A stretch of 64,000 nt of DNA from Arthrobacter sp. NicSoilB8 (GTDB taxonomy: Bacteria; Actinomycetota; Actinomycetes; Actinomycetales; Micrococcaceae). Below the pieces are notes generated by a model, which did not search any database, was not told where the DNA came from, and saw nothing but the letters and a program-made list of their open reading frames with translations. The position numbers and the translations under genes were made by a program. Positions 40,399 to 62,535 of the stretch are shown piece after piece (the first letter of the stretch is position 1; the number at the start of each line of letters is the position of its first letter). The stretch spans positions 2,232,001 to 2,296,000 of the forward strand of contig NZ_AP024655.1 in NCBI RefSeq assembly GCF_019977355.1, written 5' to 3'.

Positions 40399-42087
40399 AT
40401 GACCCTTGCGTCAGAGACCATTTTTCAGGCGTCTGCCGTACCTGCGGCCGCCGTGCGCACCCGTGTTTCGGTGCCGCTGCGCTTTCCGGACGGCTTCACC
40501 GCCGAGGCTGAAGTGATGACCTTCAGCGGGCTCGCCGACGGAAAGGAGCACCTGCTACTGGCCCTCGGCGAGTGGGAGCAGGCCTTGCTGGATGCGGCGC
40601 CAGGCGGCATAGGGCCGGATGGTGCGGGGCCGCTGGTGCGGCTGCACAGCGAGTGCCTGACCGGGGATGTGTTCGGGAGCCAGCGGTGTGACTGCGGCCC
40701 GCAGCTGCGGGAGGCCGTGGAGCGCATCGCCGCAGCAGGCGGATTCCTGCTCTACCTCCGCCAGGAGGGCCGCGGGATCGGACTGTACAGCAAGCTCGAT
40801 GCCTATGCGCTGCAGGACCACACCGCCCACACGCTCGCGCTGCCGCCCGACGTCGGACCCGGCCGCAGTGAGGCGAAAATCAGCGTCGGCTACGAGCCTG
40901 CGGCGCGGGCCGATGCTGTGGCATCGGTTGTCCCGGCCCATGAGGATATGCTCGCCCGGGCCCAGGGGCTCGTTCCGGCCCTGCGGGAGCGGGCCGAGGA
41001 AACGGAGCGCCTTCGCCGCATTCCGGAGTCCACCATGGCGGAGCTGCAGTCGGCCGAAATCTTTCACCTGCTGTCTCCGACGGCGGTCGGCGGATTTGGC
41101 ATGGGGCTGGAGACCTATGGCGAAGTGGTCCGCCGGCTTGCCCGGGGCTGCGCCTCCACCGCCTGGAGCGCCGGCCATCTGATCGAGCATGTCTGGATGC
41201 TGGCGCGCTGGCCCCGGGAGGCGCAGGATGAAGTCTTCGCGAGCGGGCCGGCCCCTTTGGCGGCCGCAACCGGCGCGCCGGCGGGTGTGGCCGAGAAAGT
41301 TCCTGGCGGCTACTCTATCTCGGGCCGGTGGACTTTTGCGTCCGGGGTGATGCATTCCGAGTGGGCGCTGCTGGCAGCGCAGCACGGCGCGGTGCGCCTG
41401 CAGTGCCTGGTGCCGCTGGCCGAGGTCGAGGTGCTCGACGTGTGGCAGACGGCCGGACTGCGGGGGACCGGGAGCAATGACATCCTGGCGGAGGGCCTGT
41501 TCGTCCCGGAGCATCGGGCGCTGGACTGGGAACTCCTGGCCGCGGAAGAGAATCCGGGCAGCGAGCTCCACTTGGACCCACTGATTCATACCCCCATGGG
41601 TGCGCTGCTGAATATGGTGGCTCCTGCCGCCGCCCTTGGATCCGCCGAGTACGCCGTCGAACTCTTCGGCGAGCTGATGATGGTGCGGAAGGTCAAACAT
41701 ACGGCGGAAGCCAGGCAGGCGGATTCACCGCTCGCGCAGGTCCGTTATGCGCAGGCTTACGGGCTGGTCGGCACGGCCCGGCTGCACTGGCAGGAAGCGG
41801 TTGGGGTGGTCTCTGCCTCGCACGCGCGCCGGCCGGCAGCGATGACCGACCGGGAGCGCAGCCAGTACCGTCTGTCCCTCGCATTGAGCGGGGAGGCGTC
41901 GGCCGCGGCGGTCCGGGTGGTCATGGCGGGATCCGGCGGGAGCGTGCACCGCTTAGCGCATCCACTGCAGCGGATCCAGCGCGACGTCAACGTCCTGATG
42001 AACCACGCGGCCCTGGCCGGGGACCCGATTCTTGAGCAGGCCGGCCGCGGCCTCCTGGGCCTCGGGTTCACTGTGCCGTCGTTCTGA
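40399..42087 (+). CDS. RibA-like (GTP cyclohydrolase II) domain fused to flavin monooxygenase/acyl-CoA-dehydrogenase-fold protein
   Basis: A 562-residue in-frame fusion. Residues 20-140 are the N-terminal half of GTP cyclohydrolase II: zinc cysteines in [20 protein letters not shown] (C86, C97, C99) and the GTP loop [20 protein letters not shown]. After that the catalytic half (equivalents of E. coli Tyr105, Asp126, Arg128) is missing. A short HTAHTLALP resembling a RibA tail leads to residues ~180-562, an acyl-CoA-dehydrogenase-fold flavin monooxygenase of the HsaA/HpaB type ([40 protein letters not shown]). The RibA part can hardly be active. The gene has a TTCAAG-type operator and lies beside dioxygenase and quinone-reductase genes. 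Confidence 0.85.
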
Positions 42088-44727: not shown

Positions 44728-44744
44728 TCACCCCTTCCGGGTGA
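44728..44744. promoter_or_regulatory. TCACCC-N5-GGGTGA palindrome (site 1)
   Basis: TCACCCCTTCCGGGTGA, 64 bp upstream of the DUF998-like gene's ATG and 24 bp after the Usp stop. It is one of four perfect N5 copies in the window, all intergenic in 44.7-58.3 kb. Confidence 0.6.
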
Positions 44745-44807
44745 CGGCGCCGAACCCAGAGGGCTTTAGCGTTGGGTTACCACCACGCCAGCGAATCGAA
44801 GTGAGTG

Positions 44808-46040
44808 ATGTCAGGCCGGAACAAACACGCAGCCGTCACGTCAGAGTCGCGGGCGCTCTTCATCGGCAGCGTGGGCTTCGTGGTCCTTGGCGGCGTCGCG
44901 TTTCTGCTGGTCGGACGGGAACCGGTTCCGTTGTCGGGTCGCGGCTCAGCCGGTGACATCGCGGCGATCGGCACGGCCGTCCTTGGTGCCGGGGCGGTGG
45001 TGGCCGGTTGCCTGCAGCGCCGGCCGCCGTTGTCACCGCCGGGGCGTGGGGGCGGCCGGACGCGCAAGGTCATTGACATCGCGGCGCTTGCACTGGCCCA
45101 CGGGTGTATCTTCCTGCTCGGCTGGCTGGCCCTCTTCTCGATCTTCCAGCAGGCGTTTATCGGTGCGGTCCTCTATCCCGTGGCGGCGGCTGTCCTTGTC
45201 GGGACCACGGGAGCCGTCAGCGCCTACATCGCGTACCTCTCGGCGCTCGGCATGAGCGCTTACCGGCTCGCCGCGCTCCTCGCCGCGTTCCTGGTCACCG
45301 GTGTCCTCACGAGCATGCTCACGGCACAGGACCCTCAGTGGTGGCAGGAGAACCTCAGTGCCCTCGGCGCGAGCTCCGACGTCTCCGGGGTGGCCTTCAA
45401 CCTGACCCTGATCATCGCCGGCGTCGTGGTCACCACCCTCGCGGGATACGCCACCATGACTGTTGCGACGACGTCGACCACGCCTTCCGCGCGTCATCGG
45501 GCGAAGCTGCTCGAAGGCGGCATCATCCTCATGGGCGTCTTCCTCGCCTGCGTCGGCGTGTTCCCCGTCGATGAGCGCTTCGGCCTCCACACGCTGGCCG
45601 CGTCCGGCATGGTGGTGGTGTTCGGATCCCTGGCTGTCCGCATCCGCGCGCTCGTCCCGTCCCTCCCGGCGACCTTCGCGGCGCTCGGGTGGGTGTTCCT
45701 GGCGGCCATCGGCGTCGCGGCAGTGCTGTGGTTCCCCGTCGGCTACTACAACCTCACCGCTGTGGAGCTGATCGCCGCCTCGCTGATCTTCTCCTGGCTC
45801 ATTGTCCTGATCCGCAACCTCGCCGCCGTCGACGCGGACCGGCTCGACGCGGACCAAGCCGACACCGCTCAGTTCGACCCGGACCGACTCGACGCGGACC
45901 GGCTCGACACCGCTCAGTTCGACGCGGACCAAACCGACACGGCTCAGTTCGACGCGGCCAGGCCAGCCCGGCGGCAGGCACTGGACAGTAAAGGCGGGCC
46001 GGCGTCAACCGCGAAGGATGAAACGGCGTCCGGGCCGTAG
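44808..46040 (+). CDS. DUF998-like integral membrane protein with repeat tail
   Basis: A roughly 410-residue protein with about eight hydrophobic helices (FIGSVGFVVLGGVAFLLVG at the N-terminus; HGCIFLLGWLALFSIFQQAF; LIIAGVVVTTLAGYATMTVA; FLACVGVFPVDERFGLHTLA). The VFPVDERFGLHTLAA segment is typical of DUF998-family proteins. The last ~60 residues are a tandem repeat of DADRLD/DTAQFD-type pentads, reminiscent of a pentapeptide repeat but very short. The start is ATG 44808, with GTG 44805 possible. A TCACCC-type palindrome lies upstream. A large hairpin follows the stop. Confidence 0.8.
   Translation: MSGRNKHAAVTSESRALFIGSVGFVVLGGVAFLLVGREPVPLSGRGSAGDIAAIGTAVLGAGAVVAGCLQRRPPLSPPGRGGGRTRKVIDIAALALAHGCIFLLGWLALFSIFQQAFIGAVLYPVAAAVLVGTTGAVSAYIAYLSALGMSAYRLAALLAAFLVTGVLTSMLTAQDPQWWQENLSALGASSDVSGVAFNLTLIIAGVVVTTLAGYATMTVATTSTTPSARHRAKLLEGGIILMGVFLACVGVFPVDERFGLHTLAASGMVVVFGSLAVRIRALVPSLPATFAALGWVFLAAIGVAAVLWFPVGYYNLTAVELIAASLIFSWLIVLIRNLAAVDADRLDADQADTAQFDPDRLDADRLDTAQFDADQTDTAQFDAARPARRQALDSKGGPASTAKDETASGP
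45836..45957. repeat. Degenerate 15/30-bp tandem repeat
   Basis: Repeated GACGCGGACCGGCTCGAC and ACCGCTCAGTTCGACGCGG units, in frame with the membrane protein and coding its Asp-rich pentad tail. Units differ by single bases, so the array is old or under selection for the amino acid pattern. Confidence 0.7.
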
Positions 46041-46119
46041 CGCGGCCGGCCAAGACTGCGTGCAGCGGTGTTGCCTGGGCCTGGACCTGGTCCTGGTGTG
46101 GCGGTTCAGTGAAGGGCCG

Positions 46120-46185
46120 CCCAACTAGCTAGCAGCAGGGGCCGTTTTGAGCCCTCAAAACGGCCCCTGCTGCTAGCTAGTTGGG
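46120..46185. terminator. 32-bp perfect inverted repeat between convergent genes
   Basis: Left arm 46120-46151 and right arm 46154-46185 are perfectly complementary over 32 bp with a two-base loop. The arms include AACTAGCTAGCAGCAGG and GGGGCCGTTTTGAG. It lies 79 bp after the DUF998-like stop and 35 bp before the trxB stop, so it probably terminates both. It is far longer than needed for a terminator and lacks a pure U-run, so it may also be a mobile palindrome family. Confidence 0.6.
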
Positions 46186-46220
46186 GGCGGGGCGGGGCTG
46201 GGCGGGGCGGATGCGGTGAC

Positions 46221-47213
46221 CTACGAATGGGTGGGTTCCTCGACGAGGGCGGTGGCGATGCTGTCCGCGTCGTCGAGCGCGGCGAGGTAGCGTTCGGCAT
46301 CGAGGGCCGCGGCGCAGCCGGTGCCGGCGGCGGTGATGGCCTGGCGGTAGCGGTGGTCCACAGCGTCCCCGCACGCGAAAACCCCTGTCAGGTTGGTGAC
46401 GGTGGTCGGGGAGTCCACCGTGATGTAGCCCTCGGCGTCGAGCTCCACCTGGCCGGCCAGCAGTTCGGTCCGGGGGACATGTCCGATCGCGACGAAGATC
46501 CCGGTGGCGGCCTGTTCGCGGGTTGCGCCGGTGCGGGTGTCCGTCAAGGTGACGCCCGTGACTTTGGCATTGCCGTGGATCGCGGTGACGGCGGAGTGCC
46601 ACGCGAAACTGATCTTGGGGTTGTCCTTTGCCCGCTGGGCCATGATGCGGGAGGCCCGCAGTTCACCCTTGCGGACCACCACCGTCACGGACCTTCCGAA
46701 GCGGGTCAGGAAGGTCGCCTCCTCCATGGCGGAGTCCCCGCCGCCGACCACGATGATGTCCTGGTCGCGGAAGAAGAAGCCGTCGCAGGTGGCGCACCAG
46801 GAGACGCCGTGGCCGCTGAACTTCTTTTCCTCCGGCAGGCCGAGTTCCTTGTAGGCGGAGCCGGTGGCGAGGATGACGGCGGGAGCCTCGTGAGTCTCTC
46901 CGGCGCCGGTGACCACGCGCTTGAGGTGGCCGGCGAGCCGGACGCCGGTGACGTCGTCGAACACCACCTGGGCGCCGAACTTCTCGGCCTGCTTCTGCAA
47001 CCCGTCCATCAGTTCCGGGCCCTGGATGCCGTCCGGGAAGCCGGGGAAGTTCTCCACCTCGGTGGTGTTCATCAGGGCACCTCCCGCGGTGACGGCCCCG
47101 GCGATGACGAGCGGCCTTAGCCCGGCGCGGGCGGCGTAGATCGCCGCGGTGTAGCCGGCCGGGCCGGATCCGATGATGATCAGCTGTTCAGTAGTTACGT
47201 TGTCAGCGCTCAT
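46221..47213 (-). CDS. trxB: Thioredoxin-disulfide reductase
   Basis: A 330-residue FAD enzyme that reduces thioredoxin with NADPH. FAD motif [20 protein letters not shown], active-site CATC (140-143) in [18 protein letters not shown] motif [19 protein letters not shown] and the closing [20 protein letters not shown] are all canonical, and the length is normal. The ATG at 47213 was chosen because AAGGAG is seven bases upstream; an earlier ATG at 47219 is too close to it. No trxA is adjacent, which is unusual since actinobacteria often carry trxB-trxA near oriC, so this may be an extra copy. Confidence 0.95.
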
Positions 47214-47350
47214 GGTCATGCTCCTTGGCGGTTGGTATCGGCTCCGGTTGCCTGGCGGCGGGAATGAGGGATGCGATCAGGGCCAGGTATCCAGTGCAAC
47301 AAGGACGGCGACTTCGATCAAGGGGCCGCGGCCGCGGGGAACTGCCCCCG

Positions 47351-49219
47351 TTACGGGGTGACGATATTGAACGCCGGGTCCCCGGTGTCGAGCACTCCCA
47401 GCAGGGCCGGCAGGACGTAGGTGCTGCCGGTCAGGGTGATGCCCGGCGAGGCGGTGTCCCCGCCGAGCAGGGCAAGCAGCCTGGCCTTGGTGAGCCGGAT
47501 CTCGGCGTCCGCCGATTCGCCCGCCACTAACTCGCTGATGAGCACGCCATTGCGGAGGGTCAGATGGTATGTGGCGTCGAGATCCGTGAACGTGACATTG
47601 AGCGAGAGGTCCAGATTCCAGGCTTTGGGTCCATCCACCGCGATGGCGAGGGATCCGAAGAGCTGCTCGGGGGTGAGCTGGGCGACGATCGCCGGTGCCG
47701 CCGTCGCCGTTGGCGTCCCGAAGTTGCCGTCGCGCAGTTCGGTGGCCCCGGAGAGGAAGAAGTTCCGCCACGTCCCGTTCTCCGAGCCGTAACCGAGCTG
47801 TTCCAGCGTGTCGGCGTAGAGCTCCCGCACCCCGGGGTTGCCGGCATCGACGAAGATGGCGTGGTCGAGCAGCGTGGCTGCCCAGCGGAAGTCACCTGCC
47901 TCAAAGGCAGTCCGCGCGGTCCCGATGACGTGGTCCAGCCCTCCCATGGCATCGACATAGCGGGTGGCCAGCCCGGCGGGAGGATGCGGCCAGAGGCGCG
48001 CCGGGTTCCCGTCAAACCACCCCATGTAGCGCTGGTAGATCGCTCTCACATTGTGGCTGACGGAGCCGTAGTAGCCCCGGGTGTGCCAGGCGTTCGCGAG
48101 GGCCGGCGGCAGCTCGATGGCCTCGGCGATCTCGGCGCCGGTATACCCCCGGTTGAGGTATCGCAGGGTCTGGTCGTGGAGGTAGGCATAGAGGTCGCGC
48201 TGGGTCGAGAGGAAGGAAAGTATCCGGTCCGCTCCCCACGTCGGCCAATGGTGGGAGGCGAAGACGACGTCCGTCCGCGTGCCGAACATCCTGATCGCCT
48301 GCGTGAGGTACGTGGACCAGACATGCGGATCACGGACCAGCGCGCCCCGCAGGGTGAGCAGGTTGTGGAGCGTGTGGGTCGCGTTTTCGGCCATGCACAG
48401 GGCGCGGTACCGGGGAAAGTAGAAGTGCATCTCCGCCGGCGCCTCGGTCCCAGGAGCCATCTGGAACTCGATCTCGAGGCCGTCCACTGTGTGGCGCTGG
48501 CCGGTCTCGCGGATGTCCAGCGTCGGCACGATGAGCCCGATTTCCCCTGTTGAGGTCGTTTGGCCGAGGCCGGCGCCCACCTGGCCCCGCGGGCCGCATG
48601 CGAGGGCCGCCCCGTACATGTAGCCGGCCCGGCGCGCCATGGCGGTGCCGGCGTAGACGTTTTCCGAGACGGCATGCTCCACGAAGCCGTCCGGGGCGAT
48701 CACCTCGATAAGCCCGGCATCGGCATCCGCCTGGGTGGCAACACCGAAGACTCCGCCGAAGTGGTCTACATGGCTATGGGTGTAGATGACGGCGGCAACA
48801 CGCCTCTCACCCCGGTGCGACCGGTAGAGCCTGAGCGCGGCGGCGGCCGTCTCAGTCGAGATGAGGGGGTCGATCACAATGACCCCGGTGTCACCTTCCA
48901 CGAAGGTGATGTTCGAGAGGTCGAGGCCGCGGACCTGGTAGATGCCGTCCACCACTTCGAAAAGGCCCTGTTTGGCCACGAGGCCGGACTGCCGCCAGAG
49001 GCTCGGGTTCACCGTGTCGGGGGCCTCACCGCCAAGAAACGAGTATTTGTCGTTGTCCCACACCACCCGCCCGTCGGCTGCGTGCACGACGGCGGGACTC
49101 AGGGCCGCGATGAACCCGCGTGCCGCGTCCTCCTGATCGGCAGCGTCCGCGAAGGGCAATGATGCGGACAGCTCACGGTGGGCAGCCGCGACGGCCTGCT
49201 CGGCTGGCTTGCGGGTCAT
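47351..49219 (-). CDS. Alkyl/aryl-sulfatase (MBL-fold, SdsA/BDS1 type)
   Basis: A 622-residue protein. The metallo-beta-lactamase domain has the zinc motif THSHVDHFGG (H148, H150, D152, H153) with later ligands in APAEMHFYFPRYRALCMAEN. It is followed by an alkylsulfatase dimerisation domain (GYTGAEIAEAIELPPALANA) and a C-terminal SCP2-like domain (AWNLDLSLNVTFTDLDATYH). This is the SdsA1/BDS1 architecture that hydrolyses alkyl sulfates such as SDS. No signal peptide is visible, so it is probably cytoplasmic here. A TCACCC-N5-GGGTGA palindrome lies 67 bp upstream of the start. Confidence 0.93.
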   Translation of the reverse strand: MTRKPAEQAVAAAHRELSASLPFADAADQEDAARGFIAALSPAVVHAADGRVVWDNDKYSFLGGEAPDTVNPSLWRQSGLVAKQGLFEVVDGIYQVRGLDLSNITFVEGDTGVIVIDPLISTETAAAALRLYRSHRGERRVAAVIYTHSHVDHFGGVFGVATQADADAGLIEVIAPDGFVEHAVSENVYAGTAMARRAGYMYGAALACGPRGQVGAGLGQTTSTGEIGLIVPTLDIRETGQRHTVDGLEIEFQMAPGTEAPAEMHFYFPRYRALCMAENATHTLHNLLTLRGALVRDPHVWSTYLTQAIRMFGTRTDVVFASHHWPTWGADRILSFLSTQRDLYAYLHDQTLRYLNRGYTGAEIAEAIELPPALANAWHTRGYYGSVSHNVRAIYQRYMGWFDGNPARLWPHPPAGLATRYVDAMGGLDHVIGTARTAFEAGDFRWAATLLDHAIFVDAGNPGVRELYADTLEQLGYGSENGTWRNFFLSGATELRDGNFGTPTATAAPAIVAQLTPEQLFGSLAIAVDGPKAWNLDLSLNVTFTDLDATYHLTLRNGVLISELVAGESADAEIRLTKARLLALLGGDTASPGITLTGSTYVLPALLGVLDTGDPAFNIVTP

Positions 49220-49285
49220 AGGATTTCGCCATCCCTCCGACGGACCACGGGCGTTCATCGTGGCACACAGCCGGAGCGCAGGCCA

Positions 49286-49302
49286 TCACCCGATTCGGGT
49301 GA
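49286..49302. promoter_or_regulatory. TCACCC-N5-GGGTGA palindrome (site 2)
   Basis: TCACCCGATTCGGGTGA, 67 bp upstream of the alkylsulfatase ATG, between it and the LysE stop. Confidence 0.6.
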
Positions 49303-49387
49303 CACCCGGGCCGGGGTCACTGAGCGTGCCCGTGCTGACGCCCGTGCTTACGCCCGAGCGCCCAGCCCGAGCACTTAGCCCGAGCGC

Positions 49388-50032
49388 TTAGGCGGAGGCC
49401 AGCGTCTTGGTCAGGATCGTGCCGCCAACCCCGACGAGGACAGCGCCCGAACCACCGACGACCATCCGGCCGGTCCGGGGCCGGGCGAGAAAGCCCGTGA
49501 TCTTCTTGAGCCCGCTGAGGAGCAGCACATACCAGGCAAAGGCAATCAGCAGGAAGATGCACGCCATTACGGTGTGCTGGGCGAGCGACGGCAGCGGGGC
49601 GAAATTGAATTGCGGGAACAGCGACAAATAGAAAACGGCGACCTTCGGGTTGAGCAGGTTGCTCACCATTCCCTGCACGAATGGCGAGCTGCCACCAAGC
49701 TGTCGGCCCGGCCGCGGTCCCGCGGGCTGCGTGTGTTCTTTGGGAGCCCTGGCGAATGCCTCGGCGAGCGCGCGGACACCCAGATAGAGCAGGTAGGCGG
49801 CCCCGGCGATCTTTATCCCGGTCCCGAGCACCTCCGAGGCCCCCAGCAGCGCCGTGACACCGAGCACCGCCAGCAGCGCAAGAATCGTGTTGCCCACCAT
49901 GATGCCGGCGGCAGCTGTTGCAGCGGACCGGGGGCCGCGGGCCGCGTTCCTGATGACCAAGGCAAAGTCCGGGCCGGGCACGAGGACCACCACCAGGCAG
50001 GTCAGCACAAAGGCCGTTAGCTGTTCGACCAT
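49388..50032 (-). CDS. LysE/RhtB-family transporter
   Basis: A 214-residue exporter with six hydrophobic segments. The family signature VLVPGPDFALVIRNAARGPR is at helix 1, and NLLNPKVAVFYLSLFPQF is the conserved centre. These proteins export amino acids such as lysine, threonine or homoserine. The ATG at 50032 is natural. It is divergent from the leader peptide and DHA2 pump, with about 294 bp between. Confidence 0.92.
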   Translation of the reverse strand: MVEQLTAFVLTCLVVVLVPGPDFALVIRNAARGPRSAATAAAGIMVGNTILALLAVLGVTALLGASEVLGTGIKIAGAAYLLYLGVRALAEAFARAPKEHTQPAGPRPGRQLGGSSPFVQGMVSNLLNPKVAVFYLSLFPQFNFAPLPSLAQHTVMACIFLLIAFAWYVLLLSGLKKITGFLARPRTGRMVVGGSGAVLVGVGGTILTKTLASA

Positions 50033-50183
50033 GGTGGTTGCCTCCGGGCGTCGGGTTCTTCAGCGGGACGGGATGAATCTGCCCGCGACAGAGCAGGGCA
50101 GGCTTCTACGTTAGGGCATATTCGGCATGACCGGCGTTGATCACGGTTCTTCTATGGCTGCGCGGGCGGCGGGGGCTGGAACT

Positions 50184-50200
50184 TCACCCGCCGGGAATGA
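50184..50200. promoter_or_regulatory. Degenerate TCACCC-N5 palindrome (site 3)
   Basis: TCACCCGCCGGGAATGA has a perfect left half but two mismatches in the right half (GAATGA). It is 127 bp upstream of the leader peptide and lies in the LysE/pump divergent region. It is included because of its position. Confidence 0.3.
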
Positions 50201-50326
50201 TTCGGTCCGGGCACCGGACGGTTAGCTTTGCATTAACATCGCACCACGGCGGGCTCTGGCGGGATGTTTTCCCGCAGTGCCGTGCTGATGTGTGCGCCTG
50301 CCCGGCCAAACGCCAGAGGAGGCGAC

Positions 50327-50428
50327 ATGCCCGGTTGTGAAATGCCCGGTTGTGAAATGCCCGGTTGTGAAACGTCGAGTCGTGAAATGACCCCGGACCC
50401 GGCAAACCGGCGGGATGGCCACCGATGA
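50327..50428 (+). CDS. 33-aa leader peptide with Met-Pro-Gly-Cys-Glu repeats
   Basis: A short frame with an AGGAGG (50317-50322) four bases before its ATG. It encodes three perfect MPGCE pentads, a fourth TSSRE, then MTPDPANRRDGHR. The DNA repeats are 15-bp units ATGCCCGGTTGTGAA at 50327, 50342 and 50357, so each unit also carries its own in-frame ATG. Its TGA overlaps the ATG of the DHA2 pump (ATGA), giving translational coupling; the pump has no good ribosome binding site of its own. The three evenly spaced cysteines could bind a metal or react with electrophiles, but no function is shown. Confidence 0.6.
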   Translation: MPGCEMPGCEMPGCETSSREMTPDPANRRDGHR

Positions 50429-52020
50429 CCGTTCCCAACGACGCCGGGAACCAGCCGGTGCAGTTCAACCAGAAACTCGCGCTGCTGTTGGCGATGGCGA
50501 TGTTCGTGCTCGTTGTCGACACATCGATCATGAACGTCTCGATCTCCGCTGTTGTCAGGGACATCAACAGCACCGTCAGTGACCTTCAAGCGGCTATTGC
50601 CCTTGAAGCGCTGGTATCCGCCGCGTTCATCCTGATCGGCGGCAAAGTGGGCGACCTGATCGGACGCAAGCGCGCCTATGTCCTGGGCCTCTGCGGATAC
50701 GCTGTGGGCGCCGTGGCGATGACGCTGGCTCAGAGCATCACGGCGATCCTCATTTTCTGGGCCCTGATCGGCGGCCTGGGCGCCTCGCTCCTTCTTCCGG
50801 CGATGCAGTCCCTCATCCACGGCAACTTCGACGGCGATGCCCGCAAGCGCGTCTATGCGTTCGTCGGGGCCTCGGCGGCGATCGCCGCCGCCGTCGGGCC
50901 CCTCCTGGGCGGCTTCATCACCACATTTCTGTCCTGGCGGGTGGCCTTCCTGCTGGAAGCGGTCATCATCGCCGTCGTCCTGTCCGGAATCAAGCTCGTG
51001 AAGGACGTCCCGTATACGGGACCCCGGGAGTTCGACGTCGTCGGATCACTCCTTTCCGTCTTGGGCATGGGCGGAATCGTCCTGGGAATACTGGTCTGGC
51101 AGGAAGGCGGCGAGGCTGTTGGCGCCCTCCTGATTGTCGGGGCGGCCGGACTGGGCGGGCTCTTCTTCTGGCTCGTGCGGCGTGAGCGCCTCAAAAAGCC
51201 GATGCTGCTGGATCCAGGGTTGTTCCGGTCGCAAGGCTTCCGGTTCGGCGCTACACAGCAAATGCTCCAGCAGGTCACCCTCGGCGGCACCATGATCGTG
51301 CTGCCGATCTACCTTCAGATGGTGCTCGAGTACAACGCGATGCAGGCAGGGTTGTCCATTGCGCCGCTCTCACTGAGCATGTTCGGCATTGCCCTGCTGG
51401 CCGGCAAGAGGGCCGGGACGCGGCGCCCTGCAAGCATCATCAGATGGGGCTTCATTCTCCTGCTGGTGGGTTTGCTCGCGATCTTGCCTGTTGTGCCGCG
51501 CGCTGACTCCGGCTGGTGGCTCTTGGTCCCGCTGATCATTGCGGGCTGCGGCCTCGGGCTGCTGGTGTCGCAGCTGAACAACTACACGCTGTCCCCGATC
51601 TCGGACGAGCGCGTCAGCGAGGCTGCCGGAGTGAACTCGGCCGCAGGGTCGTTCGGATTGTCGTTCGGTCTCGCGTTCGCCGGCGCCATCATGCTGGCCT
51701 CGCTGTCGTTGATTTTCACCGCCATGGCGACCTCGAGCACGGTGCTCCCGCCCGCCGAACAGCAGCAGGTGGCGCAGGCGCTGGAGGAGGACGCCCAGGT
51801 CCTCAGCAACACCCAACTCTCGGAACTCCTCGTCAGCCAGCCGGCGGACATCCAGGCCGAAGTCATCCGCATCAACACGGACGCCCGGCCCATCGCCCTG
51901 CAGATCGGTCTGCTGATCCCGATTCTCGCCAGCGTGGCCGGCCTCTTGATCTCCTTCCGCATGATGCGGATCCCTGATCCCAAGCCCTCCGGCACCGGCG
52001 AGGGCGCATTCCTGGATTGA
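50425..52020 (+). CDS. DHA2-family MFS efflux pump
   Basis: A 531-residue transporter of about 14 helices. Helix 1 has MFVLVVDTSIMNVSISAVV, loop 2-3 GGKVGDLIGRKRAYVLG, helix 5 the antiporter motif AAAVGPLLGGFITTF. After helix 13 there is a hydrophilic external loop (STVLPPAEQQQVAQALEEDA) before the last helix, seen in some actinobacterial members. The ATG overlaps the stop of the Cys-repeat leader. Substrate unknown, presumably toxic organic compounds. It converges on the GAP-family gene with 50 bp between. Confidence 0.92.
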   Translation: MTVPNDAGNQPVQFNQKLALLLAMAMFVLVVDTSIMNVSISAVVRDINSTVSDLQAAIALEALVSAAFILIGGKVGDLIGRKRAYVLGLCGYAVGAVAMTLAQSITAILIFWALIGGLGASLLLPAMQSLIHGNFDGDARKRVYAFVGASAAIAAAVGPLLGGFITTFLSWRVAFLLEAVIIAVVLSGIKLVKDVPYTGPREFDVVGSLLSVLGMGGIVLGILVWQEGGEAVGALLIVGAAGLGGLFFWLVRRERLKKPMLLDPGLFRSQGFRFGATQQMLQQVTLGGTMIVLPIYLQMVLEYNAMQAGLSIAPLSLSMFGIALLAGKRAGTRRPASIIRWGFILLLVGLLAILPVVPRADSGWWLLVPLIIAGCGLGLLVSQLNNYTLSPISDERVSEAAGVNSAAGSFGLSFGLAFAGAIMLASLSLIFTAMATSSTVLPPAEQQQVAQALEEDAQVLSNTQLSELLVSQPADIQAEVIRINTDARPIALQIGLLIPILASVAGLLISFRMMRIPDPKPSGTGEGAFLD

Positions 52021-52071
52021 GCCTCGCGGGGGTGTGCCCGCCCGGGCCTGATCTGCGCGGCCTCTTCCGGA

Positions 52072-52740
52072 TCAGAGTTGCAGGAAGCTGTAGCCGACGA
52101 TGAAGAGTCCGATCGCGAGGGTGACGATCGCCGCTATCCTGCGGCCGTGGCGCTGCAGCCAGTTGTAGAGGGCGGTCAGGGGCACTTGGGCGCGCTCCGG
52201 AGAGTGGAGCCACACGGCGACCGGAACAACGACGGCGGACTGGACCACCGCGGCGTACGCGAGGACCAGTACGCTTCCTTCCAGCGGCGGCAGGCCCTGG
52301 ACACCGATCACGGCACCTGCCGCGACGGCCAGCAGGATTGCCTTGGGACGCAGGTTTAGGCCCAGGCCCAGGACGACGAATTCCCAGGGCCGGGCCGAAC
52401 GGAACCTCGACTTCATCTTGCCGAGCATGGCGTTTTCCCGCCGGCTCTTGCTCACGAAGAGGTACAGGGAGTAGCCGATCAGCATTGCACCGATCACAAT
52501 GCCAAACTGGGCCACCCATTCGTCCTTGCGCAGGAGCGGCGGCCTGACGGGCAAGAGCTGGAGCCCGACCGCCGACAGGCTCACCATCACAATTGAACCG
52601 ACGAGGCTGCCGATGAGGAAGGGAAGCGCGCCGCGGCGTGGATTTGGCGAGAGCAGAATCATGATCGTCACGCTGACGGGCACGGTGCTCACGGCCCCGG
52701 CGAGGGCGAAGAGCACCAGACTGGCTAACGTGTTCAGCAT
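52072..52740 (-). CDS. GAP-family membrane protein (Sap-like)
   Basis: A 222-residue protein with six hydrophobic helices (TLASLVLFALAGAVSTVPVS; FLIGSLVGSIVMVSLSAVGL). The motif PWEFVVLGLGLNLRPKAILL matches the LysE-like GAP (sulfolipid-addressing, Sap) family. In mycobacteria these proteins help export glycolipids; the substrate here is unknown. The ATG at 52740 was chosen over an upstream ATG (52767) because the hydrophobic start is right after it. It lies 39 bp downstream of the AI-2E family gene and may be co-transcribed. Confidence 0.82.
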   Translation of the reverse strand: MLNTLASLVLFALAGAVSTVPVSVTIMILLSPNPRRGALPFLIGSLVGSIVMVSLSAVGLQLLPVRPPLLRKDEWVAQFGIVIGAMLIGYSLYLFVSKSRRENAMLGKMKSRFRSARPWEFVVLGLGLNLRPKAILLAVAAGAVIGVQGLPPLEGSVLVLAYAAVVQSAVVVPVAVWLHSPERAQVPLTALYNWLQRHGRRIAAIVTLAIGLFIVGYSFLQL

Positions 52741-52779
52741 GCGGCTGTCACCTGCCCCGGACGGCACCCTGGCGGCACG

Positions 52780-53934
52780 TCATGCCTTCGGCGCACTGCC
52801 CGTTTCCGGGCGCCCCGGCCGGGGCCGTCCGCGGCGGGCCCGGATCGCCTCGTCCTCTTGCTTGAGGAGCACCTGCAGGTCGGTTCTGTCGCCCGTGAAG
52901 GGCCGCCACCATGACATCGACGGGTCGGAATCGAGCAGGATCGTGCGAACGAAGAGCGTCAGGGGGACTGCAAGGATGGCTCCGACCGGGCCCAGAAGCA
53001 GGGCCCAGAAGAGGACGGAGGCAAAGGTCAGAGTCTCGCTGAGCGACACCGCGTTGCCCACGTACTTGGGCTGGATGATGGACTGGATCACGCTGTTGAT
53101 CCCGCCATAGATGACGATGATGGCCACGACAGTCGGCCAGCCGCCGGTGAGGAAACCAAAGAACAGCGGCGGGACGATCGCGATGAAGTAGCCGATGTTG
53201 GGGATAAAGCTGCAAATGAACGACAACAACCCCCAGAGCAGGGCGCCGGGGACCTGCAGGATGACCAGGACCAGCCAGTTGAACAGGCCCTGGGCGATTC
53301 CGAGGACCGTGGTGGCGACCATGTAACGGCGCACACCTATACCGAAGCCGATGAACGCGGTGACCAGTGCCGGCCGGTGGTAGTTCAGATGCGTCAGGAG
53401 GGCCGGTACGCGGGAGCCATCAACGGCCATGAGGATGAGCATGGTCAGGATGACCACGAGGCTCCCCACCAGGCTCGCAATATTCCCCAGGAGGCCGCCG
53501 AGGAACCCGATGATACGGCCCGGCGTAAACCCGTTGAGGACTTCCTGGGCTTGCTCTGGCCCAAAACCTACCGATTCCAACAGACCGGCGAGACTGGCGC
53601 CGAGTTGGGCCACCTGGGGGGCGTATTGCGGCAGCAGCGCGGAGAACTGTGCGAGGGAGGCAATCAGGACAGCCGCGAAAGCTGTCAGCAACCCGAAGAC
53701 GGCTGCGATGGTTGTCCCCGTGGCGATGCCCCGGGAAATTCCCCGTGCTTGCATCCAGCGGCGAATGGGATGAACACACAGCGTGAGAACGAACGCAAAG
53801 AATATGGGGGTGACGATTCCCCTCATGGCGCCAAGGCCGAACGCCACGACAGTGGCGCCGGCCAGTGTGAGCAGGATCGTGACGGTGCGGGGGAGGGCAG
53901 GGCGTGGATCGGATTCCGATGATGCCGGCTCCAT
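52780..53934 (-). CDS. AI-2E family transporter (PerM/DUF20)
   Basis: A 384-residue protein with about eight helices in the YdiK/PerM pattern: TIAAVFGLLTAFAAVLIASL, LVGSLVVILTMLILMAVDGS, LLSFICSFIPNIGYFIAIVP, VVAIIVIYGGINSVIQSIIQ then PKYVGNAVSLSETLTFASVL. Members include the AI-2 exporter TqsA and sodium-proton antiporters, so the exact substrate is open. The cytoplasmic C-terminus is basic and hydrophilic. The ATG at 53934 follows AAGGAGGG. Confidence 0.9.
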   Translation of the reverse strand: MEPASSESDPRPALPRTVTILLTLAGATVVAFGLGAMRGIVTPIFFAFVLTLCVHPIRRWMQARGISRGIATGTTIAAVFGLLTAFAAVLIASLAQFSALLPQYAPQVAQLGASLAGLLESVGFGPEQAQEVLNGFTPGRIIGFLGGLLGNIASLVGSLVVILTMLILMAVDGSRVPALLTHLNYHRPALVTAFIGFGIGVRRYMVATTVLGIAQGLFNWLVLVILQVPGALLWGLLSFICSFIPNIGYFIAIVPPLFFGFLTGGWPTVVAIIVIYGGINSVIQSIIQPKYVGNAVSLSETLTFASVLFWALLLGPVGAILAVPLTLFVRTILLDSDPSMSWWRPFTGDRTDLQVLLKQEDEAIRARRGRPRPGRPETGSAPKA

Positions 53935-54041
53935 TGAGCCCTCCTTGGTTCAGTCTGGCCCTAGTTTAGAGGCGAGGAGGCGTGGCGAGTAGTGGATTAA
54001 TAGTGGCCTGCTGGCCGGCTGATAGGGATCCCCAATCTGAG

Positions 54042-54428
54042 TCAGGCAATTACTCTGCTTTTGATCCGTTCGAACTCCGCCGCGCTGATGGTTCCGGCGT
54101 CCATGAGCGCCTTGGCCTTGGCGATCTCCTCACTGGGGCTCGCTGCGGCGGCCTGCCGGATATAGGAATCCATTTCCGCCTGGCTCTTGCGGGCCTGTTC
54201 CCTGGACCTCTCCGTCATTCCCTTGCCGCGCGCGACCATGTATACCAACAGCGACAGGAAGGGCACGAAGGCCAGGAAGAAGATCCAGACGGCCTTCCAC
54301 CAGCCACTGAGTTCGTGGTCCCGGAAGAGATCAGCAATGACCATGAACAATGCCCACAGGAAGGCGAAAATTGCGTAGACGCAGAACAACCACCAGACAA
54401 TGTCCCAAAAGTTCTGGAAGAAACTCAT
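54042..54428 (-). CDS. SHOCT-domain protein with PLDc_N-type membrane region
   Basis: A 128-residue protein. Residues 5-65 form two membrane helices (NFWDIVWWLFCVYAIFAFLW; WWKAVWIFFLAFVPFLSLLV) in the PLD-nuclease N-terminal style, with the WK-xxW motif. The C-terminal SHOCT motif is AKAKALMDAGTISAAEFERI (about 104-123), a short oligomerisation element. Function unknown; such proteins are frequent in stress operons. The start is ATG 54428. Confidence 0.87.
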   Translation of the reverse strand: MSFFQNFWDIVWWLFCVYAIFAFLWALFMVIADLFRDHELSGWWKAVWIFFLAFVPFLSLLVYMVARGKGMTERSREQARKSQAEMDSYIRQAAAASPSEEIAKAKALMDAGTISAAEFERIKSRVIA

Positions 54429-54494
54429 TTCGGCTTCCCTGCTTTCACTCGGCGCGGCGTTGTTTTGGACGCAGGCTCTGGTCGGGCCGTGGGC

Positions 54495-54950
54495 CTAGCA
54501 CTTGACGTCATTCGTGAGGTCGCTGATGGCCGCCTGCACGTTAGCGGCTTCGTCCCGCAGCGAGTTCACAGCCTGAGTAAGCGTTGCACTGTCGGGCACG
54601 GAGTTCACGGCGGAAGCAAACTTCTGCTGAGCAGCTTTGACGGCATCCACCCGGTCCTTGGCGGCGTCCCCGGCAACCTTGACCAGCTCGTCATAGGCCG
54701 TCCGGACCTGATCCCGGGCCGTCTGGATCTGGTCTATCGTGGCGCCTGGTTTGAGGGTGTCCTTGAAATTGGTCAAGGCCGCCGAGAAGGCATCGGCGGC
54801 GGCACACACGGGCGAAACGGTCTTAGTCTGGCTGGTGGTGGGGCTGGCGCTGGGGCTGCTGCTCGGGCTGGTGGTGCTGCAGCCGCCGAGCAACGCAATT
54901 GCGGCCCCGAGCGCCAACACCCGGGCGACGGTTGATGGTGGTCTCGACAT
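54495..54950 (-). CDS. Lipoprotein of unknown function
   Basis: A 151-residue predicted lipoprotein: basic N-terminus, hydrophobic stretch, lipobox LLGGC (Cys24), then a Ser/Pro/Thr-rich linker (SPSSSPSASPTTSQT). The mature part is helical (FKDTLKPGATIDQIQTARDQ; AQQKFASAVNSVPDS; AVNSLRDEAANVQAAISDLT) and ends in Cys, resembling small secreted helical bundles in actinobacteria. A TCACCC-N5-GGGTGA site is 105 bp upstream. It follows the SHOCT gene direction, about 66 bp apart. Confidence 0.85.
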   Translation of the reverse strand: MSRPPSTVARVLALGAAIALLGGCSTTSPSSSPSASPTTSQTKTVSPVCAAADAFSAALTNFKDTLKPGATIDQIQTARDQVRTAYDELVKVAGDAAKDRVDAVKAAQQKFASAVNSVPDSATLTQAVNSLRDEAANVQAAISDLTNDVKC

Positions 54951-55294
54951 CGGAGGCCCCTCTCTTCATGGGCTCGCACTCTTCATGCGCTTGCGCCTGG
55001 CAGCCCAGGCACTGGCAGGTATCACCAGTGTTGGCTTCGCGCCACACGGGCACCTCACCCGCCGGGGGTGATCCTGGGCGGCACCCACCAGCGCCGGGCA
55101 AGGCCGTCCCTCAGACGCAGAGGGGGTGATCGGCGTCGTCGGAGTTTCCCCAAGTGGGCCCCTCGGAGCAGTGCCGGAGAATCTGGGCCGGCAAATCCGT
55201 GCCGGAGAATCTGGGCCGTCGAATCACCCCGGGGTGATGATGTGCCGGCCACGCACACGTGATGGACTTCAGTCCACAGGAGAGGGAGGACGCC
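54951..55294. promoter_or_regulatory. Divergent intergenic region with two TCACCC palindromes and a 20-bp repeat
   Basis: The region between the lipoprotein and the amidotransferase carries TCACCCGCCGGGGGTGA (55055-55071, N5 spacing) and TCACCCCGGGGTGA (55224-55237, N2 spacing; extends to a 16-bp palindrome). Between them a 20-bp sequence (GTGCCGGAGAATCTGGGCCG) is repeated at 55171-55190 and 55199-55218, a 28-bp period. There is no gene. The first palindrome is nearer the lipoprotein, the second 58 bp from the amidotransferase ATG. Confidence 0.6.
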
Positions 55295-56125
55295 ATGTGT
55301 CGTTGGCTCGCGTATTCGGGTTCGCCGATCAACCTTGAGGAGCTTTTGTACAAACCCGCCAACTCGCTCGTGATGCAAAGCAGACACGCACGGTTGGGAG
55401 TTGAAACCACCAACGGGGACGGCTTTGGTGTTGGCTGGTATGGTTCGGCGCCGTATCCCGGACTGTTCCACAGCACGGAGCCGGCCTGGCACGACCGTAA
55501 CCTCCGCGAACTGTCCGGCCAGGCGTCATCCGGGCGGGTTTTCGCACATATCCGGGCCTCGACCGGCTCGGCTGTCCAACAGACGAACTGCCATCCGTTC
55601 CGGCATCGCCGATGGCTGTGGATGCACAACGGGCTCATCACGGATTTTCCGGCGGTGAAGCGTGACCTGGCCATGGCCGTGGAACCTTCGCTTTTTCCGC
55701 AGATCGAGGGAGCTACGGACTCGGAGCTGTTCTTCTTCCTCGCGCTCACCTTCGGCCTGGAGCAGGATCCCCACGGGGCCGTTTCTGCCGCGGTAGGGCT
55801 GATTGAAGACGTCGGAAGGCAGCACGGCATCGATTTTCCGATCCAGATGACGGTGGCAACCACCGACGGCGACACCACCTGGGCGTTCCGCTACTCAAGC
55901 GAAGGCCGGTCCAGGTCGCTGTTCCACAGCACTGACGTCGCGACGCTTCGCGCCCAGTACCCGGACAACCCCATGCTCCATGCCCTCTCGGACGACGCCC
56001 GGCTGATTGTCTCCGAGCCGTTGGGCGACTTGCGCGGCGCCTGGCGGGAAGTGCCGGAGTCCACATGCGTTGTGGTCCACGGCGGCGGGGAAGACCTGCT
56101 GGAGTTCTCGCCCGCAGTTGTCTAG
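55295..56125 (+). CDS. Class II glutamine amidotransferase (YafJ/EgtC-like)
   Basis: A 276-residue Ntn-hydrolase. Met1 is followed by Cys2 (MCRWLAYSGSPINLEELLYK), the N-terminal nucleophile after Met removal. Other family elements are ETTNGDGFGVGWYGSAPYPG, SGRVFAHIRASTGSAVQQTN, CHPFRHRRWLWMHNGLITDF and ATDSELFFFLALTFG. Ergothioneine-pathway EgtC is one close relation, but no egt genes are nearby, so the exact role is open. The ATG at 55295 follows GGAGG by five bases. A TCACCC-type palindrome lies 58 bp upstream. A terminator follows. Confidence 0.92.
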   Translation: MCRWLAYSGSPINLEELLYKPANSLVMQSRHARLGVETTNGDGFGVGWYGSAPYPGLFHSTEPAWHDRNLRELSGQASSGRVFAHIRASTGSAVQQTNCHPFRHRRWLWMHNGLITDFPAVKRDLAMAVEPSLFPQIEGATDSELFFFLALTFGLEQDPHGAVSAAVGLIEDVGRQHGIDFPIQMTVATTDGDTTWAFRYSSEGRSRSLFHSTDVATLRAQYPDNPMLHALSDDARLIVSEPLGDLRGAWREVPESTCVVVHGGGEDLLEFSPAVV

Positions 56126-56162
56126 TCCCGCAGTTGCCTAGCCCGCAGTTGCCGAGAGCCGG

Positions 56163-56188
56163 GCCGCCCGCCGCAGCAGGCGGGCGGC
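56163..56188 (+). terminator. Rho-independent terminator
   Basis: GCCGCCCGCC and GGCGGGCGGC form a 10-bp perfect stem with a GCAGCA loop, followed by TTCCTCTT, 38 bp after the amidotransferase stop. Confidence 0.85.
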
Positions 56189-56240
56189 TTCCTCTTGCCG
56201 GGGGCAAATGAGCCCCTGACAGCCCCTAAACCGTGAGCCC

Positions 56241-57815
56241 CTACGGCAGAGGAATCGTCGGGTTTGGTTCGTCCCGCGGACCGGCCGACGTGGCGGGGCC
56301 GGCGGCGGACGCGGCGACGGACCCGGGGCCGGATGAGGCCGCCGGCGCGGTCGGCCCGGCGGCGGACCCCGCGTCGGTAGTGGCCCCCGCGGCGGTACCG
56401 GTCCCGGCGGCGGTACCGGTCCCGGCGGCGGGCTCCATGACGGTCCCGGTCCCGGACACCGCGGCGGAGTCGGCCTCCGGACCTAGGACAATGGCTGGCC
56501 GGCATAGCAGCTCGATGAGGAGAATGGCCAGGACGGCGAGGACCGCCGTCCAGATGGCGACGGCTGCCGTCGGGTCCTGCCAAAAGATCAGCACCAGCAC
56601 GGCGATTCCGACGACGACGGCGTCCAGTATCCTCCGGTAACGGGCCAACCACCGCTGCCACGGTTGGACCTGGCCGGCACCAACCTTGCCGTTGATGTAG
56701 TCGCCCGCACTCGCCAGCCCGTGGCGGACAAACTCAGCGGGACGTGAGTGGCCGCTCAGGAATGCGGCCAGGGCAATGATGAGTCCCACCACGAAGACGA
56801 GCCGCACGCTGCTCCGCAGGGGCACCAGAAGTGTCTCGACCAGGCTTTGAGCCGCCGCCGGGGAGACAGAGTCGGGAGGAATCGAATTCAACAGGATACT
56901 GCGCCCGATCACTAGTCCCAGCGCCAGCACCGCCATGGCTATGGCCACGCCCAAACCGACGCCGCTGGTGGTGCTCCGTTTCCGGCCACGCGGTGCCACC
57001 GCGATGGCACCTACGGCGGTAATCACCGTCAGCCACGCCAGTATTGGGGCAGTCGAGTCCAGGGTCCTGATGGCGTTAGTGGCCCGGACCAGCTCCGGCG
57101 ACTGGAACAGGGTAATCTGCGCGTCAACGTCCGGGATCCTGGCGGCGATCTCGATTCCCTGCTGGACCAGGGCGGTCTTGACCCGGGCAATGATCTCTTT
57201 GGTGGAGATCGTTACAGTGCCGTTCTGGTCAATATTGACCGTGCCGCCGGTGTTACCGGTGGCAAGGTTCACCAGGCCCTGGTGTGCCACCCGGTTCACC
57301 TGGATCCAAAGATCCTGGAACTGTGGCGTTGCCACGAATTTGGACACGGTGGAATGAATGAGGTTCTTTGTCTGCTCCGCAATCACCGGAGCCAGCCCGG
57401 TGATCACTGCGGCCACGCGCGGCGCCGTTTTGCTGAGTTCGTTGAGCGCATCGCGAGTGATGGTCTCAAAGTCCACGGAGTCGGTGATCTGTTTCGTGAC
57501 CTTGTCTGCGATCTCGGCCTGGATCGCAGGGTCCGACGCTAACGGCGCCACGGTGGCCACGTAGCGGTCGGTGTCGATTAATTCGCTGCGCAAATACATG
57601 GCGGGCACGGCGGCGAGGGCCAGTACGGCGGTCAGTACGACCAGCACGATCGCTATGATCCGGCGGGCCAGTCCGGGATGAGGCCCGGCCGTCCTCGGGC
57701 GGGCCTTTCTGGCGTCGTCCCGTTCGCGCTGCAACCGGGCAACCTCCGCCCGAAGCCGCAGTATTTCTTCCTGTTCCGGGCTGCCGGTGCCGGGGGTCTG
57801 GTCCTGGAGAGACAT
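56241..57815 (-). CDS. Actinobacterial integral membrane protein with coiled coil and disordered tail
   Basis: A 524-residue protein. The N-terminus is a short coiled coil (EILRLRAEVARLQRERDDAR, about 18-37), followed by a helix (IIAIVLVVLTAVLALAAVP), a large extracellular-type region (~75-240; SELIDTDRYVATVAPLASDP; VNIDQNGTVTISTKEI) and about five more helices. The C-terminal ~85 residues are Ala/Gly/Thr-rich with GTGTAAGTGTAAG repeats and probably disordered. This layout is common in actinobacterial proteins of unknown function. Confidence 0.8.
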   Translation of the reverse strand: MSLQDQTPGTGSPEQEEILRLRAEVARLQRERDDARKARPRTAGPHPGLARRIIAIVLVVLTAVLALAAVPAMYLRSELIDTDRYVATVAPLASDPAIQAEIADKVTKQITDSVDFETITRDALNELSKTAPRVAAVITGLAPVIAEQTKNLIHSTVSKFVATPQFQDLWIQVNRVAHQGLVNLATGNTGGTVNIDQNGTVTISTKEIIARVKTALVQQGIEIAARIPDVDAQITLFQSPELVRATNAIRTLDSTAPILAWLTVITAVGAIAVAPRGRKRSTTSGVGLGVAIAMAVLALGLVIGRSILLNSIPPDSVSPAAAQSLVETLLVPLRSSVRLVFVVGLIIALAAFLSGHSRPAEFVRHGLASAGDYINGKVGAGQVQPWQRWLARYRRILDAVVVGIAVLVLIFWQDPTAAVAIWTAVLAVLAILLIELLCRPAIVLGPEADSAAVSGTGTVMEPAAGTGTAAGTGTAAGATTDAGSAAGPTAPAASSGPGSVAASAAGPATSAGPRDEPNPTIPLP

Positions 57816-58316
57816 GAGGGGCTCCGCCTAAGTAGCAACTCGTCGCGCCGGCCCGTTGCTACAGGCGGCTGGGTGTGGATGAGTCAGCGCCGTCATGGAA
57901 GCACCCGTTGAGGCAGGGCTGCTGGATACGGGCACGCGAACCACCTCCAACAATATGCCGACGGCGTCTGGCCGCGTTGCCGGGTCTGACGCGTCTTCCT
58001 TGGACGCCTGCCTGAAGCAGGAAGCGGGAGTGGCGGATGCCGCTCCCGTTCCGCGGTTGGGCACTCATGACAATTTTCATTGTCCGCTCGGCGTGCGTGC
58101 CCAGCCCCATCCACACAGGGTGATCTGTTAGCCCGAAGGGTACTTCGCCCCGGCCGGGCGGTGGTTGGGGCGGAACGTGGGATGTCGTGATGATGGGCAA
58201 ATCGGATCCCGGCATGGCCGCAGGGGCGGGATATCCGCCTCTTTCAGTTCCGTATCTCCTTGGCGCCTCGATGCGGCATCACCCCGTGCGGGTGATTAGA
58301 AAGTCCGGATTTGGGT
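57816..58316. promoter_or_regulatory. 500-bp gene-free region with a TCACCC-N5-GGGTGA palindrome
   Basis: TCACCCCGTGCGGGTGA (58279-58295) is a perfect N5 copy, 22 bp after the potassium channel stop and far upstream of the 57815 start. A single GGGTGA half-site is at 58118. Short stems such as CGAAG/CTTCG near 58133-58150 are weak. No coding sequence is supported in either strand. Confidence 0.5.
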
Positions 58317-58877
58317 CTAATGGCCCAGACGCCGGCCGGCCGCAAAAAAGGACACTTTTGCCACTAAAAGGAGAGCCCCCAGATCAGCAATCATCTGCAC
58401 GGATACGACTGCGCGGGCCAGTTGACTTGTCGGCGTAATGTCGCCGAACCCAACTGTGGCAAACGTGCTGGTTGTGAAGTAGAGCGCGTCTGTTCTGTCC
58501 AGGGGTTCGCTAAATGACAACAGGTCTGTTACCGACATGGATGTGTAGAGCAAGGCAAAGAGACACAAGAACAGCAAAACGGATTCGACGACCGCCTCTG
58601 CCGCCCGGACCTGGGGGATATGCGCCGTCAGGATCATCCGTAATTGGATGGCCATGGTGGCCAAGAAAATCAGCACTATGACCGCCAGCCGGATCCACGC
58701 GGCCGCGGGATTGGCGTCGTTGAAACCCCCTATTGGAATAAGGAAATAAAGGCCGAGCACTATGACGGTGAATGCGACCAGACGGACTACCGCGAAAATA
58801 AGGACGCGCCTTCGGCCGGCTTTATCGAGGTCGCGGAGGAAAAGCGGGTCCGTTTGGCTGCCGTGCTTCGAAGCCAT
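58317..58877 (-). CDS. Potassium channel (two-TM/ion-channel family)
   Basis: A 186-residue membrane protein with about five hydrophobic segments, ending in the pore helix YFTTSTFATVGFGDITPTS (filter TVGFGD 141-146) and a last inner helix (AVVSVQMIADLGALLLVAKV). It lacks an S4-type basic helix, unlike the channel at 32000. The start is the ATG at 58877 (MASKHGSQ); an upstream extension to 58928 lacks similarity. It is divergent from the LuxR-type regulator, whose start is 135 bp away. Confidence 0.88.
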   Translation of the reverse strand: MASKHGSQTDPLFLRDLDKAGRRRVLIFAVVRLVAFTVIVLGLYFLIPIGGFNDANPAAAWIRLAVIVLIFLATMAIQLRMILTAHIPQVRAAEAVVESVLLFLCLFALLYTSMSVTDLLSFSEPLDRTDALYFTTSTFATVGFGDITPTSQLARAVVSVQMIADLGALLLVAKVSFFAAGRRLGH

Positions 58878-62291: not shown

Positions 62292-62306
62292 CTGACTCCC
62301 ACCCTC

Positions 62307-62402
62307 GCTGACTGGCTCCCTTGCTGACTGGCTCCCTTGCTGACTGGCTCCCTTGCTGACTGGCTCCCTTGCTGACTGGCTCCCTTGCTGACTGGCTCCC
62401 TT
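62307..62402. repeat. Six perfect copies of a 16-bp minisatellite
   Basis: Unit GCTGACTGGCTCCCTT at 62307, 62323, 62339, 62355, 62371 and 62387, all identical, followed by a partial unit and preceded by a degenerate one. It starts 16 bp after the Usp stop. There are no spacers, so it is not CRISPR. It lies in no convincing gene. Its perfect identity suggests recent expansion and possible copy-number variation. Confidence 0.95.
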
Positions 62403-62535
62403 GCTGACGGCCGGGCGGACTCCGGAGGGACAGCGGCAGTGCCCTCCGCCGTCGGGCCCCTGGACTGGTCCGAACACACGGCCTGAAGTGGCTGGCGTTA
62501 GGGCAGGGGCTGGCAGCTCCGGCAGAAACGGGTAC

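Follow-up and report, generated by a model that had tools for sequence, protein, structure and literature searches.

A TCACCC-N5-GGGTGA palindrome in Arthrobacter sp. NicSoilB8 as the predicted operator of a MalT/LAL-type LuxR regulator

RESULTS

The palindrome and its neighbouring genes

We analysed a 64 kb stretch of Arthrobacter sp. NicSoilB8 DNA (contig NZ_AP024655.1, positions 2,232,001 to 2,296,000, referred to as the window), which carries a recurrent palindrome, TCACCC-N5-GGGTGA, and a gene for an 884-amino-acid LuxR-type protein (59012–61666, + strand) that we propose as its regulator. Perfect copies at 44728, 49286, 55055 and 58279 had been reported in an initial annotation; they are indeed the sole perfect matches in the 64 kb, and the distances it gave from sites to start codons hold as well.

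Three of these copies precede predicted target genes and are followed by a predicted -10 element. The first (44728–44744, +) lies 5′ of a gene for a DUF998-like membrane protein (44808–46040, +; GTG/ATG start at 44805 or 44808; Pfam DUF998 match below the curated cut-off), with TAGCGT at the conserved distance (44767–44772, +). At the 3′ end of this gene (45830–45960) a repeated Asp-rich segment is encoded (RLDADQADTAQFD and variants). The second (49286–49302, −) is located 5′ of a gene for an alkylsulfatase of metallo-beta-lactamase fold (47351–49219, −; Pfam), and its predicted -10, CACGAT (49257–49262, −), falls one base beyond the commonest offset. The third (55055–55071, −) is placed between a lipoprotein and an amidotransferase gene and faces the lipoprotein gene (54495–54950, −), with AACACT at 55027–55032 (−). 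This small lipoprotein matches no Pfam family above cut-off and belongs to a protein cluster (c1) found in nine genomes; the next gene encodes a SHOCT-type membrane protein (54042–54428, −; cluster c0, SHOCT match just under the cut-off). The fourth copy (58279–58295, no strand assigned) is separated by 22 bp from the 3′ end of a gene for a potassium-channel-type protein (Ion_trans_2 by Pfam; 58317–58877, −), part of a conserved cluster, and shows no -10 match on either side: as a regulon site it remains a perfect copy with no clear target.

Two imperfect copies had also been proposed. The one at 55224, described as a variant with a spacer of two, is more plausibly a degenerate N5 site, TCACCC-N5-TGATGA (55224–55240, +), 5′ of a class II glutamine amidotransferase gene (55295–56125, +; Pfam GATase_4), a likely target. 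In 9/9 orthologous amidotransferase promoters printed, TCACCC is followed by an N5-spaced TGATGA, AGATGA or AGGTGA (by eye), and the N2 reading was rejected on account of this recurrence. A possible -10, TGGACT (55263–55268, +), lies at the same distance without the A. The degenerate copy at 50184 was discarded as being at chance level, the window holding six two-mismatch copies against 5.05 expected matches with at most two mismatches.

The whole 5.17 Mb genome (G000) contains 11 perfect copies and none of the reversed control. The spacer length is specific: 11 copies have spacer 5 while the other 20 spacers in the range 0–20 total 13 (0.65 each; Poisson probability about 1e-10). One-mismatch copies were no more frequent than the reversed control (6 versus 7). 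With genes called by a simple in-house caller, 9 of the 11 sites fall clear of any call. Site 334845 lies inside a gene call and 55055 coincides with the end of an antisense open reading frame (ORF) call; we judged the latter call spurious, since the conserved lipoprotein gene is displaced by it. Over all fetched loci, 72 of 80 sites were clear of called genes, even though gene calls take up 79% of the own-genome loci. Seven of the 11 sites are outside the window: the regulon extends far beyond the supposed stress region.

A MalT/LAL-type regulator

The protein encoded at 59012–61666 carries a P-loop (APAGYGKS) near its N-terminus, in which A53, P54, A55, G56, G58 and K59 are invariant over 21 aligned rows, and a C-terminal GerE helix-turn-helix (HTH) domain (Pfam GerE, 53.4 bits, cut-off 23.5). 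No receiver domain match was found with Pfam. AAA_16 and TPR_MalT matches fell below their cut-offs for the window protein; TPR_MalT exceeded its cut-off for the regulator of a Luteimicrobium locus (L263). The family profile matched the N-terminal domain of Escherichia coli MalT (8bob) with an E-value of 3.5e-64 over positions 16–426. A predicted model (mean pLDDT 77, pTM 0.50) contains helical repeats and has MalT 8bob as its best fold match (E 2.6e-12), with MalT domain III (1hz4) among the weaker ones (E 0.011, rank 50). With P-loop, MalT-type NTPase, TPR-like region and GerE HTH all found, the protein is a MalT/LAL-type STAND LuxR regulator. It is not a NarL/FixJ response regulator. The LuxR-type candidate at 59012 put forward in the initial annotation is the best-supported regulator.

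The palindrome accompanies one regulator class

Among 39 relatives including G000, 15 had a match, with 7 sites in G019, 10 in G028 and few in the others; 198 genomes of the genus carried 0 to 11 sites each (reversed control 0 or 1). The surroundings of many sites were fetched, their genes called and the proteins clustered. A LuxR-type protein of about 880 amino acids (cluster c6) was present in the fetched DNA of 9/9 site-rich genus genomes, and two further genomes examined there had a different LuxR-type protein (c59). In seven loci a regulator gene is followed by a site 28–53 bp after its end; in four others it is preceded by a site at 87–98 bp. In G067 (79% complete, still 4 sites) the regulator gene (G067:C1:848758-851387) is split into several frames.

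Close c6 orthologues (>600 bits) occur in 25 of the 198 genus genomes. A profile (A1) of the C-terminal 150 residues, built from six c6 and two c59 rows, the latter two (second paralogue) picked because sites adjoined them, separated 41 genomes with the class from 157 without, across a gap of 162 versus 82 bits. Sites were found in 40/41 genomes with the class and in 20/157 without it, which is the background rate. Mean site numbers were 4.36 with the close orthologue (n = 25), 1.56 with the second paralogue only (n = 16) and 0.14 with neither (n = 157), for a reversed control of 0.157; p-values for such comparisons are not independent tests because the genomes are related. Outside the genus, with a cut-off of 75 bits fixed after scores were seen, 16/24 regulator genomes had at least two sites versus 21/265 others; at 100 bits or more the figures were 9/13 and 28/276. 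Sites and regulator gene shared one fetched stretch in G413, G482, G036, G380, G475, G258 and G255. In G475 and G258 (L195, L196) two MalT-type regulator genes flank genes for a protein of about 2485 amino acids and a sulfatase-like protein, with one site before one regulator gene and another near the sulfatase-like gene.

In 80 named regulator loci there were 12 TCACCC palindromes at spacer 5, with 0–2 for each of the other lengths between 0 and 11; 11 of the 12 copies are new, since L261 is the same record as G131. The eight loci concerned come from Arthrobacter (the G131 record), an Acidimicrobiales metagenome-assembled genome, Nesterenkonia, Cellulomonas, Lentzea (two), Planosporangium and Nocardioides. 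TCATCC-N5-GGATGA was confined to the Luteimicrobium locus L263, with two copies (L263:7097 and 10066) near a MalT-type gene, and the 71 other loci had neither palindrome. The enrichment is specific to TCACCC, for TCANNN palindromes overall were not enriched at spacer 5 (15, 17 and 18 at spacers 3, 4 and 5). TCACCA gave 5 copies at spacer 4. Judging from these genomes and loci, the palindrome tracks one protein class, the MalT/LAL-type LuxR regulators.

A fixed distance to the -10 element

For 73 of the 80 sites in fetched loci a gene begins no more than 330 bp away; removing similar flanks left 59. These 59 were oriented by annotated target, then by nearest gene, and hence not blind. An A at +24 together with a T at +28 was present in 30/59, and one base further in 14 more, against an average of 1.4/59 at other offsets and 4/59 on the opposite side of these sites. 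With this A and T taken as -11 and -7, the palindrome would extend from about -51 to -35, an activator position on a transcription start site (TSS) inferred from the -10.

We also scored one site per genome on both sides and at both offsets, some of these sites being among the 59. The -10 was found in 14/16 genomes with the close orthologue and 6/9 regulator genomes of other families, versus 2/16 (genus) and 3/23 (order) without regulator. Searching genomes for site plus -10 returned 9, 8, 6, 9 and 7 matches in five regulator genomes versus 0, 0, 0, 0, 1, 0 and 0 in seven others, selected with knowledge that perfect sites were absent; the reversed control had one match in G000 and one in G114. 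In the own genome the -10 accompanied 8/11 perfect sites, plus a GGATGA variant at 2809668. The initial proposal, a regulon built on a dimeric-protein site, is supported.

A divergent half-site in two other genera

The class is present in G461 (141 bits) and G408 (124 bits), from two other genera, and TCACCC sites are absent there. A scan of their regulator clusters gave several palindromes, of which TCATCA-N5-TGATGA alone was common to both (L200:3080, L200:9390 and L201:2916, with a mixed copy at L201:7886). All four copies show A24/T28 toward the next gene, at the same -10 distance, and FGE-sulfatase and DUF1254 genes come after them. The TCATCA-N5 copies in these clusters are the sole perfect ones in G461 and G408, and 25 other genomes hold 3 together. 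The recognition helix reads NTVRTHQR in G461/G408 versus NTVKTHER, the K/R change affecting a residue that we take to be a base-contacting position in NarL. In a Leucobacter locus (L264), also R-type, the halves are a mixture of TCATCA/TCATCC and TGGTGA/GGGTGA. G255 and a G380 fragment break the pattern: their R-type proteins occur in loci carrying TCACCC sites.

Target genes and other features

Own-genome sites with a -10 outside the window precede a second lipoprotein gene, a holin/phosphodiesterase gene, a SHOCT/cardiolipin synthase region, a CLC channel gene and a DUF6325 gene. Genes behind sites include those for SHOCT, DUF6325, small lipoprotein, CLC channel, holin/phosphodiesterase, cardiolipin synthase, DUF998 and alkylsulfatase proteins, and sulfatase genes in other families. 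An M24 peptidase gene lies behind a site lacking a -10 match (C1:2181080).

Elsewhere in the window, a reverse-strand ORF at 62108–62479 consists of a short repeated peptide (SAREPVSKGASQQGSQ), and therefore a tandem DNA repeat is located downstream of the Usp gene. A 562-amino-acid ORF at 40399–42087 looks, by eye, like a fusion of a truncated GTP cyclohydrolase II region with an acyl-CoA dehydrogenase-like region.

DISCUSSION

The palindrome very probably serves the MalT/LAL-type LuxR protein of 59012–61666, and its relatives, as operator. Binding, dimer geometry and activation, which we infer from sequence, could be arranged as follows. The regulator, a STAND ATPase that combines TPR-like repeats with a GerE HTH at its C-terminus, would place two copies head to head on the inverted GGGTGA half-sites. 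Since the downstream half ends near -35, the bound protein would substitute for the -35 element and recruit RNA polymerase to the -10, which lies some 22 bp downstream, as in class II-type activation. Within the window, this control would cover the DUF998, alkylsulfatase and lipoprotein genes, with the class II amidotransferase gene controlled by way of the degenerate site.

Several observations weigh against this proposal. The genomes compared are related and hence not independent. G087 (83% complete) has the regulator and no site, and in G364, G278, G219 and G249 (78–118 bits) neither a TCACCC site nor a perfect TCANNN-N5 alternative was found in the 3.4 kb examined. Conversely, G047, G228, G361, G367 and G429 hold 3–4 sites without the regulator; one of the three sites of G047 (L213) is apparently within a coding stretch (by eye). 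The -10 is missing at 3/11 own-genome sites, is weaker outside the genus (8/26) than within it (22/33), and occurs in 1/8 loci of second-paralogue genomes, seven of which represent one orthologous site.

Moreover, other MalT-type paralogues could share the sites, the window regulator being one of several users. Several genomes do have more than one regulator of the class (e.g. G128, G036, G258 and G475), and the second paralogue alone is accompanied by sites in 16/16 genus genomes. On the other hand, G000 stands above the 162–82 bit gap once, its next class-profile matches lying under it, and far more sites go with the close orthologue than with the second paralogue (4.36 versus 1.56). We consider joint use unlikely.

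It is less likely still that another HTH regulator, for instance an orphan NarL/FixJ response regulator such as BldM (about 200 amino acids), binds the sites and that the MalT-type gene is a co-inherited neighbour. GerE-type domains are common to both families, and BldM group I sites share the half-sites, TCACcCgnncGgGTGA (PMC4125116). Their spacer is 4, though, and the own genome has no N4 copy, for which reason the BldM reading was rejected; the motif goes together with the MalT-type class in several families, and in G461/G408 half-site and recognition helix differ together. Finally, several copies sit just beyond a gene 3′ end and each could form a 6 bp stem, but an RNA hairpin, terminator or dispersed repeat is highly improbable, and was rejected, given the 55055 copy between divergent genes, the variable spacers and flanks, the fixed downstream -10 and the dependence on one regulator class.

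The target gene content suggests envelope or ion homeostasis; the stress role first attributed to these genes remains hypothetical. The regulon appears to be patchily inherited among actinobacteria, with a large MalT-like protein as the probable activator of its promoters. Actinobacteria commonly encode LAL/MalT-type LuxR proteins, and to our knowledge most of these are without known targets. Here sequence evidence links regulator, operator, promoter geometry and predicted regulon, and offers an initial clue to how SHOCT, DUF6325 and small lipoprotein genes are controlled. The altered half-site in two genera hints at a recognition code. There is perhaps an even chance that a broad actinobacterial MalT/LAL class controls a patchily inherited envelope/ion-homeostasis regulon unrelated to maltose through a single rigid arrangement of the operator (inverted MalT boxes, 5 bp spacer, end at -35), with half-site identity (TCACCC, TCATCC, TCATCA) drifting with the recognition helix. 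If true, the targets of orphan LAL proteins could be read from genome sequence.

Comparison with known systems

Our literature search, which left subscription papers mostly outside, found no report of a TCACCC-N5 operator or of the 59012–61666 regulator. Among large ATP-binding actinobacterial regulators, Streptomyces SCO6993, a LAL, also binds palindromes; unlike the predicted activator of the window it is a repressor, and no consensus is predicted for its sites (PMC9628970). The SARP-LAL PimR differs in binding heptameric direct repeats (PMC5930380). BldM group I sites of Streptomyces have the same TCACCC/GGGTGA half-sites, bound by a GerE-type domain, but differ in the spacer of 4 and the developmental regulon (PMC4125116). 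As to E. coli MalT, whose N-terminal domain the window protein matches, its box GGA(T/G)GA resembles GGGTGA/GGATGA and overlaps -35; unlike here, its boxes are described as a core hexamer that is repeated, not as a single inverted pair, and it controls maltose genes (PMC7567727).

The closest precedent is MalT of Actinoplanes sp. SE50/110 (ACSP50_3915), and by analogy the window system would work like it. There, TCATCC-5 nt-GGATGA is found at 17 TSSs with its 3′ end 34.4 +/- 1.0 bp from the TSS, and malT deletion reduced 42/51 genes (PMC7567727). Common to both systems are a MalT-like LuxR activator (predicted here), 6 bp halves with a 5 bp spacer, a site ending near -35 (with the window-side TSS inferred from the -10), a regulator within its target cluster and a patchy distribution. 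Both systems also include a class II amidotransferase gene (55295–56125 here) and an aminopeptidase P gene, of which the M24 peptidase gene at C1:2181080 is the counterpart. The half-site differs, TCACCC here and TCATCC there; for Actinoplanes, the 17 sites are described as lying in a single region of 51 genes, expression as dependent on maltose, and the gene content as including others such as arginine deiminase (PMC7567727). The Luteimicrobium locus L263, with its two TCATCC-N5-GGATGA copies, is a possible link between the TCACCC and TCATCC operator forms.

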